Shown one piece after another: positions 18,706-39,119 of a stretch of 39,119 nucleotides of DNA; the first letter of the stretch is position 1, and every line of letters begins with the position of its first letter. This DNA is from Bacteroidaceae bacterium (GTDB taxonomy: Bacteria; Bacteroidota; Bacteroidia; Bacteroidales; Bacteroidaceae). Position numbers and translations under genes: made by a program. The notes under the pieces were generated by a model. It was given only the letters and a program-made list of their open reading frames with translations. It made no database searches and had not been told where the DNA came from. The DNA is taken from the NCBI GenBank assembly GCA_024398515.1, contig JAKSIZ010000021.1, forward strand, positions 1 through 39,119, given 5' to 3'.

Positions 18706-19135
18706 CATTTCATTATGTGTGGTCTGCCTTAGGCAGCCTTGATGTGTTGGTTGCGTCTGTGCTTATATGAACAAGTTCATAAAGCCCAGTCGCAACCAAC
18801 ACATCGCTCTTCGTTCCGAAGAGCCACACATAATGAAATGACAAAATACCTTACGGTAAAAAATGTGGCCGTTGGCCATAAAAAATAATATTTGACTATA
18901 GGTTATGGGTTGTAGGTTATGGAGTTCTGATTTTAGGTTATCAACCAACAACCAAACCACATTTTTTACGAACGAAGTGAGATATTTTTTATGCGAAGCA
19001 TATTTTGTATATGATGTATGGATGGCCACGACAGTGGTGTCTGTTTATGGTATTGCAGCGCAAGAACTTGTTCTTTAGCGCTGCAATACCATAAACAGAC
19101 ATGGGCTTCAGTATGATGCACACCATACATCATAT
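18706..19135 (+). repeat. Structured intergenic element, copy A (complete)
   Basis: Domain I (18706-18840) is a DNA or RNA cloverleaf: a perfect 17-bp closing stem (18706-18722 with 18824-18840) holding three arms at 18724-18736, 18741-18805 (15 perfect bp, then a near-perfect inner stem) and 18807-18823. Domain II (18841-19001) carries small hairpins TACC/GGTA, TGGCC/GGCCA and ATGC/GCAT, and a 13-bp alternative stem (18856-18868 with 18957-18969). Domain III (19009-19135) has a 13-bp closing stem (19009-19021 with 19123-19135), a small arm (19025-19038) and a perfect 24-bp arm (19038-19061 with 19078-19101). Two inner blocks match copy B at 52 of 54 and 78 of 81 bases. No protein is encoded. 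Confidence 0.85.
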
Positions 19136-19259
19136 CATTTTTTTCCATTATGATTACACCAGATTTTGCATTCGAGCCATATTAATTCATCGGAACGTTG
19201 GAAGGTTGAGGCTGACTTGAGCGCTATGCTTTCGGGGAATGTTCGGTTGGGGTGTTGAA

Positions 19260-38702: not shown

Positions 38703-39119
38703 CTTTGTTATTGTCTTCTTGTTTAGGTCTGCATTTGCAATGCATCCCTGGCATCTATGAGCGTCAGTTCGTCTGCATACCCCATGGCTATACAGACGAA
38801 CAGCCACTCACAGCAGCCAAAGACAATAACAAAGACAAAATGCCTAACGGTAAAAAATGTGGCCGTTGGCCATAAAAAATAATATTTGGTTATAGGTTGT
38901 TGGTTGTAGGTTATGGGGGTTATGGGGTTGATGTTAACCTACGACCTAAAACTTTCAACCAACAACAATCTTCATTTTTTACGAACGAAGTGAGATATTT
39001 TTTATGCGAAGTATATTTTTTATATGATGTATGGATGGCCACGTCAGTGGTGTCTATGTGTAGTATTGCAGCGCAAGAACTTGTTCTTTAGCGCTGCAAT
39101 ACTACACATAGACATGGGC
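38703..39119 (+). repeat. Structured intergenic element, copy B (cut by window edge)
   Basis: Domain I has a 15-bp closing stem (38703-38717 with 38820-38834), a 6-bp arm with a TGC loop (38730-38744) and a 9-bp arm (38767-38775 with 38793-38801). Its sequence is unlike that of copy A. The inner blocks 38835-38888 and 38975-39055 match copy A at 52 of 54 and 78 of 81 bases. The middle keeps a stem GTAAAAAATG/CATTTTTTAC (38850-38859 with 38973-38982). Domain III has a perfect long arm with compensated changes relative to copy A; its outer closing strand lies beyond the window. Confidence 0.85.

Follow-up and report, generated by a model that had tools for sequence, protein, structure and literature searches.

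The 39,119-nucleotide stretch of DNA analysed here (contig JAKSIZ010000021.1 of a Bacteroidaceae bacterium, hereafter the window) probably contains two non-autonomous copies of a mobile element, the full form of which would consist of two outward-facing cloverleaf hairpins (heads) placed around a GxxExxY gene. Both copies are members of a family dispersed in a Prevotella-like genome (hereafter the source genome), and their component parts are as follows.

18706–18840, outward strand minus: left head of copy 1, a type A cloverleaf, its CTTG loop lying on the minus strand (CAAG at 18772–18775).
18841–18894: left arm of copy 1, in which A6/T6 linkers separate short hairpins; identical to copy 2 at 52 of 54 positions.
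18895–18961: variable centre of copy 1, made up of GGTTAT-like repeats; a GxxExxY gene occupies the equivalent place on contig C73.
18962–19008: right arm of copy 1 (T6, hairpin, T6, hairpin, T), the core of which has 34 occurrences in the genome.
19009–19135, outward strand plus: right head of copy 1, a type D cloverleaf with its long arm at 19038–19101 and CTTG at 19067–19070.
19136–19152: outer T-run and AT-rich flank of copy 1, common to many copies, the flanks beyond being unlike.
38703–38834, minus strand: left head of copy 2, of type B, with no evident likeness to type A; the same type stands beside GxxExxY on C73.
38835–38888: left arm of copy 2, compared with that of copy 1.
38975–39021: right arm of copy 2, likewise compared with copy 1.
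39022–39119, plus strand: right head of copy 2, of type D, ended by the contig end, with its long arm at 39051–39114.

Recomputation confirmed two statements made in an earlier note on this DNA, namely that the inner blocks of the two copies are nearly identical (52/54 and 78/81 positions), and that within the nine long-arm pairs counted from 19043 and 39056, respectively, four differ and all four are compensated (GC/AT, TA/GC, AT/GC and GC/AT). Relative to 50 mononucleotide shuffles, the fold energies corresponded to z values of −14.3 for head A on its outward strand, −12.5 for head D and −9.1 for head B. The note's description of a ~430-base element present twice is accurate for the window, with copy 1 whole and copy 2 cut by the contig end, but not for the genome, in which the right-arm core occurred 34 times when up to two mismatches were allowed and BLAST returned 81 matches. 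The right-arm core was absent from 397/397 other genomes of the genus. The exact core pattern had no match in genome_contigs or viral_contigs, and a full-element search of 60 genomes returned the source genome together with one further genome in which two stretches of 44–48 bases matched the central repeats. An Rfam scan of the window gave no match, the element hence not being a listed structured RNA at the gathering score, a result consistent with the note's statement that no known family was recognised.

Each element comprises two ~130-nt cloverleaf heads, facing outward and connected by arms made up of short hairpins and T-runs, the order on each side from the centre to the outside being T6, small hairpin, T6, small hairpin, T, head and T7. 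Among 22 distinct left arms, 14 led to a head of type A, four to type B (one of them cut) and two to type C, the remaining two being cut too short or at the core; the 28 right arms led to type D in 21 cases (one shortened), to type E in three and to other heads in two, with a further two cut. To the eye, types A, B and C were mutually unlike, as were D and E, the loop region excepted, and the pairings A-D, B-D, C-D, A-E and C-E all occurred; further head pairs in the source genome were F-G on contig C1 and H-I on contig C45. Heads unlike in sequence shared a common design, in which an outer stem is combined with a single long arm and with either one or two short ones. In 14/14 heads the long arm measured 62–69 nt; it spanned 28–31 pair columns in 12/12, and its loop read CTTG on the outward strand in 10 of the 11 head types A–K, type B being the exception.

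Some individual copies carried peculiarities of their own. One D head (L036, contig C81, position 137, reverse complement), without its long and third arms, is now one simple palindrome; hairpins of another repeat, of the TCATCGACTTTAGTCGC type, were inserted into element linkers at L004, L005 and L027; and a lone D head and the F-G pair stood on either side of what appeared by eye to be a DpnII-like restriction-modification set (L096 8800–12770, equivalent to C1:68800–72770). Many assembly contigs start or stop within heads or arms (the window at 39119, and contigs C9, C46, C54, C62, C80 and C82), so that the elements fragment this genome assembly.

Further copies agreed with the claim in the earlier note that covariation points to a maintained structure. 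In a sample of 14 D heads taken from 18 distinct ones, 14 of the 53 pairs had changed on both sides, and covariation amounted to 47 cells against 15.4 ± 3.0 in shuffles, none of the 500 shuffles reaching as high a value. The paired changes were confined to the long arm, the other helices being nearly invariant. Pairing is kept under selection; a separate set of pair counts was circular, every row having been aligned by its own fold. On the outward strand, the 18 D heads exhibited 36 G·T versus three A·C cells (10 versus one columns), and 11 K heads from the relative G008 exhibited 20 versus one; 14 A heads, with nine cells of each kind, had no wobble asymmetry. With RNA parameters the outward strand gave the better fold in 41 of 45 heads, and with DNA parameters in 43 of 45; heads F–K had been oriented by the strand bearing CTTG ahead of this comparison of energies. 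From the wobble bias in types D and K, taken together with the better outward-strand fold, it seems that one strand matters in single-stranded form, with RNA and DNA both possible as the working form.

Relatives were sought by shape using R1, a covariance (structure) model prepared from heads picked regardless of nearby genes, which scores CTTG favourably and so biases upward the tip counts of its matches. Five of 60 genomes were matched, namely the source genome with 55 matches, G008 with 17, G002 with two, G047 with one and G042 with one weak match, some places being hit on both strands in these counts. Matches were obtained in 15 of 249 genomes of the genus and in four of 296 genomes of the phylum, the source genome included in each case. 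In G008 the same layout recurred with the linker CTTTGCG replacing T6 and with several mutually unlike left heads, and by family the linkers read ATTTTTT, CTTTGCG, ATTTTC, GTTTTT and ATTGTT. In nearby pairs with both heads detected (G219 at two places, one each; G141, two; G095, one), the left head matched best on the minus strand and the right on the plus strand; at L279, L283 and L285, the two R1 matches apiece did not form an outward pair. Whole-genome searches beyond the genus gave six matches (L144, L146, L430, L431, L432 and L433, located in G047, G042, where the match was weak, G556, G714, with two, and G655), each 2–14 bp 3' of a tRNA-Ser (four) or tRNA-Met (two) gene and on the same strand, and the stretches fetched around these six heads had no GxxExxY gene. 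In G047, part of the head was repeated close by.

On contig C73 of the source genome, a type B left head and left arm, 88–93% to copy 2 of the window, L017 and L032, are followed in turn by an intact 149-aa GxxExxY gene, the right-arm core TTTTTTACGAACGAAGTGAGATATTTTTTATG and the contig end. On sequence grounds, this locus is the gene-bearing form of the window family, observed up to the right-arm core, with the right head lying beyond the contig end. As C73 carries the left head type of copy 2 and the right arm of the window, the two copies in the window appear to be derivatives, lacking the gene, of a GxxExxY element. Similarly, contig C12 has an H head, a GxxExxY gene and a second head in succession, and the H-I pair on C45, which has the C12 head types and no gene, is the gene-less form of the C12 element. 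In G205, a GxxExxY gene is framed by a G008-type left head, linkers, hairpins and a K head, the right head being located with R1 and the left by our own structural scan; the G008-family copies that were read have this layout without the gene found inside the G205 relative, and in G008 itself, with 17 head matches, GxxExxY is matched only in part. At L346 (G190 C75:898–1146), a GxxExxY gene that has decayed and contains stops adjoins a head, as if the element were losing its gene. Gene-bearing relatives, in the same genome and elsewhere, speak for one option of the earlier note, a non-autonomous mobile element with palindromic ends. The likeness to IS200/IS605-type systems that it had drawn was not supported, the sole Y1 match in the source genome being a broken gene amid other repeats and the 17 R1 matches of G008 being accompanied by no Y1.

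Heads are placed beside GxxExxY genes. Of the 80 named Bacteroidales loci, 41 had an R1 head no farther than 500 bp from the gene (E ≤ 0.05, a threshold at which 57 of the 68 R1 rows near these loci counted and ~0.05 chance matches were expected overall), with best strands that pointed outward, minus on the left by 21:1 and plus on the right by 23:4, and with heads on both sides at eight. Of the 56 genus loci, from which partial, decayed and long-ORF PF13366 matches had been excluded (L314, L315 and L316 dropped) and which partly overlap the 80 named loci through several shared contigs (e.g. L350, L354, L366, L393 and L423), 10 had an R1 head within the same distance at E ≤ 0.02 (L283, L287, L289, L292, L298, L300, L312, L318, L324 and L325, the L283 match being scored on L347), the left head being on the minus strand in 6/7, the right on the plus strand in 6/7, and both sides occupied at four. 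The tips at the named loci read CTTG in 33 of 57 cases and CTCG in 10, R1 itself rewarding CTTG. None of 33 control loci (25 PF05635 and 8 Y1), drawn from genus and order relatives in genomes other than those of the 80 loci, had an R1 head within 500 bp, the sole match lying 725 bp from the gene; 41/80 versus 0/33 corresponds to a Fisher p of 1.2e-8, the controls being unmatched. The association rests on the covariance model because our own structural scan, run with no energy or loop limits, was too loose, returning at least one side at 32 of 56 GxxExxY loci versus 12 of 35 controls and both sides at 8 versus 1. At 39 of the 80 named loci no R1 head was present within 500 bp at E ≤ 0.05, and the GxxExxY family was present in 30 of 32 genus genomes tested, including genomes with no R1 matches, so that presence of the gene alone does not separate head-bearing genomes.

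Curated scores identified the element gene as GxxExxY, two proteins scoring 100 and 135 bits against TIGR04256 (cut-off 35) and six sequences 87–138 bits against PF13366 (cut-off 22). Residues E42, D82, E92, K94, Q106 and Y110 (E, D, ExK, QxxxY) were invariant in 28/28 named relatives, and in 20/20 more diverse proteins the same pattern was invariant, a result partly selected by the search pattern, which demanded D and ExK and recovered 20 of 32 loci. This E-D-ExK-QxxxY motif presumably marks the Cas4/lambda exonuclease clade. The best Foldseek match to the predicted fold (pLDDT 92.4) was SSO0001, which we take to be a Cas4 (E 7.9e-4, the sole match at ≤ 0.001; TM about 0.5), followed by LHK-Exo and lambda exonuclease (TM about 0.4–0.5); a sequence search with the C12 protein gave no convincing solved relative. 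Judged by its modelled fold, GxxExxY looks like a putative, nuclease-like member of the PD-(D/E)XK group, akin to Cas4 and lambda exonuclease. It resembles that clade in fold and in the E-D-ExK-QxxxY residues, but differs in being about 146 aa long and in standing beside hairpin ends.

In one group of similar elements (L351, L352, L356, L358 and L359), likeness ends at ACAAAAACC and GGTTTTTGT or close by, and the flanks are unrelated. Terminal motifs took the form ACAAAAACC...GGTTTTTGT in this group and GGSTCACC ends in some G008 copies, and the termini of the window family have a short AT-rich motif only. No consistent target duplication was evident among the 16 pairs compared, some of which were alike far past the element and thus uninformative on ends, and an 8-bp duplication in one of ten G008 spans tried lay within tandem repeat DNA; a fixed target duplication does not seem to accompany insertion. 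Empty sites in related genomes, suggested in the earlier note as a check, were not found, the best flanking-gene relatives, ~75% identical over one gene, being of no use for this purpose. We infer movement from the dispersal of the elements, the coexistence of gene-bearing and gene-less forms, and the unrelated flanks.

We tentatively propose that GxxExxY proteins may drive the movement of a distinct mobile element class, one that encodes no transposase, integrase or reverse transcriptase, and that as Cas4-like nucleases they may recognise by shape and not sequence the paired, mostly CTTG-capped, four-way-junction hairpins. The covariation, and the wobble bias in two of three families, suggest that the folded outward strand of each head would be the recognition form; the association and the predicted fold suggest that GxxExxY might bind the cloverleaf and cut at the head feet or linkers, and the family-specific linkers may be the sites of the protein. 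It would act in cis, and in trans on copies that lack the gene, those of the window among them, the latter suggested by the head type and arm shared with C73, and the moving form could be either DNA or RNA. Against the reading of the window elements as gene-less copies of a GxxExxY mobile element stand the want of an empty site and of a consistent target duplication, the occurrence of GxxExxY in genomes without R1 matches and the 39 of 80 loci without heads, the 17 heads of G008 alongside a partial GxxExxY match, the symmetrical wobble of type A and the absence of a CTTG loop from type B, and the extra-genus heads that stand beside tRNA genes and not GxxExxY.

GxxExxY might instead be a passenger, serving in defence or addiction with structured transcripts while some other enzyme moves the heads, which we consider unlikely. 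In its favour, the copies read are mostly gene-less, neither a target duplication nor a transposase signature points to a mechanism, R1 heads are missing near 39 of 80 GxxExxY loci, and the PD-(D/E)XK fold is common in defence. Against it, the only other gene seen inside an element at the loci read belongs to the four-helix family PF05635 (in G008), and heads are otherwise missing beside PF05635 loci. That gene lies amid GGTTCATGG repeats in one truncated G008 element (L202; G008 C27:123000–124500), and as a candidate element gene the 23S rRNA IVP gene (PF05635) was rejected, one of 11 G008 matches being inside an element.

It is improbable that the heads are instead a structured RNA or bidirectional terminator serving the cell, to which the GxxExxY elements are merely similar in shape. 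In the source genome a T-run follows each hairpin on the outward strand, the six extra-genus heads lie directly downstream of tRNA genes and share their strand, and G-T mispairs far outnumber A-C on the outward strand of types D and K, this one-strand wobble in two families favouring a single-stranded working form, structured RNA included. Nevertheless, a rough ORF call at 32 loci placed 16 copies between tandem, eight between divergent and five between convergent genes, with three undetermined, a placement unlike that of terminators, and the G008 linker CTTTGCG is no T-run; a terminator was rejected on these two grounds. The lack of the arm core in 397 other genus genomes and the existence of gene-bearing versions also argue against a function for the cell.

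A REPIN/BIME-like element mobilised by a Y1 (RAYT) transposase is highly improbable and was rejected: the paired, inverted, strand-specific hairpins in many intergenic copies would suit it, as would the 'atypical secondary structures' that the passage found in PMC6006769 places beside RAYT subclass 2.6 of the Bacteroidetes, but that passage terms those structures weaker, the present heads being very strong, and the heads read have no conserved GTAG/GTGG foot, the only Y1 match of the source genome is broken and surrounded by other repeats, G008 has none, and R1 heads occur at 0/8 Y1 loci. The broken Y1 gene lies between arrays of other palindromes (GCCCTTTCAGGGC, CCCAGGGC...GCCCTGGG; L137, C18:22396–22599) and is perhaps part of a separate decayed REP system. 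An IS1595-type MITE was rejected as well, IS1595 transposase being present in 0/6 genomes.

The element nevertheless shares with REPINs/BIMEs and their RAYT (TnpA-REP) the inverted, strand-specific hairpin pairs, intergenic location, many copies and a gene-bearing source copy. It differs from them in having ~130-nt four-way cloverleaf heads in place of a short hairpin, a PD-(D/E)XK GxxExxY gene in place of an HUH/Y1 gene, and feet that read by eye ATTTTTT, CTTTGCG, GTTTTT and similar in place of GT[AG]G; a cognate Y1 framed by hairpins was found neither in the source genome nor in G008 nor at the 8 Y1 loci. The resemblance to MITEs extends to the derivation of gene-less copies from an element with a gene, to possible terminal inverted motifs and to unrelated flanks (one group tested). 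Gene-bearing relatives exist in the same genome, on C73, whose contig stops before the right end, and on C12 in the case of the H-I pair. Unlike MITEs, however, the gene is no known transposase, no consistent target duplication was seen, and the ends diverge in sequence yet keep their shape.

By curated score, the gene carried by full elements belongs to the GxxExxY family (TIGR04256/PF13366), for which, as for the repeats covered by PMC6006769, PMC2229807 and PMC5771137, the passages found, from a coverage excluding preprints and most subscription papers, describe neither paired heads nor a mobile context, the GxxExxY passage not being on mobility. The element is apparently a new kind of bacterial mobile element. 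Repeats at assembly breaks are explained by it, and sequence searches miss such elements, the core being present in 0/397 other genus genomes and the shape in 14 besides the source genome in another draw of the genus. GxxExxY, a nuclease-like family of unknown function present in 30/32 genus genomes, gains a context and a testable role, and a candidate class of mobile element emerges whose ends are conserved by shape and not by sequence. If the proposal for GxxExxY is true, these ends would be free to drift via compensatory change, and their one-strand tolerance of G-T pairs would mean that they act as RNA or single-stranded DNA.
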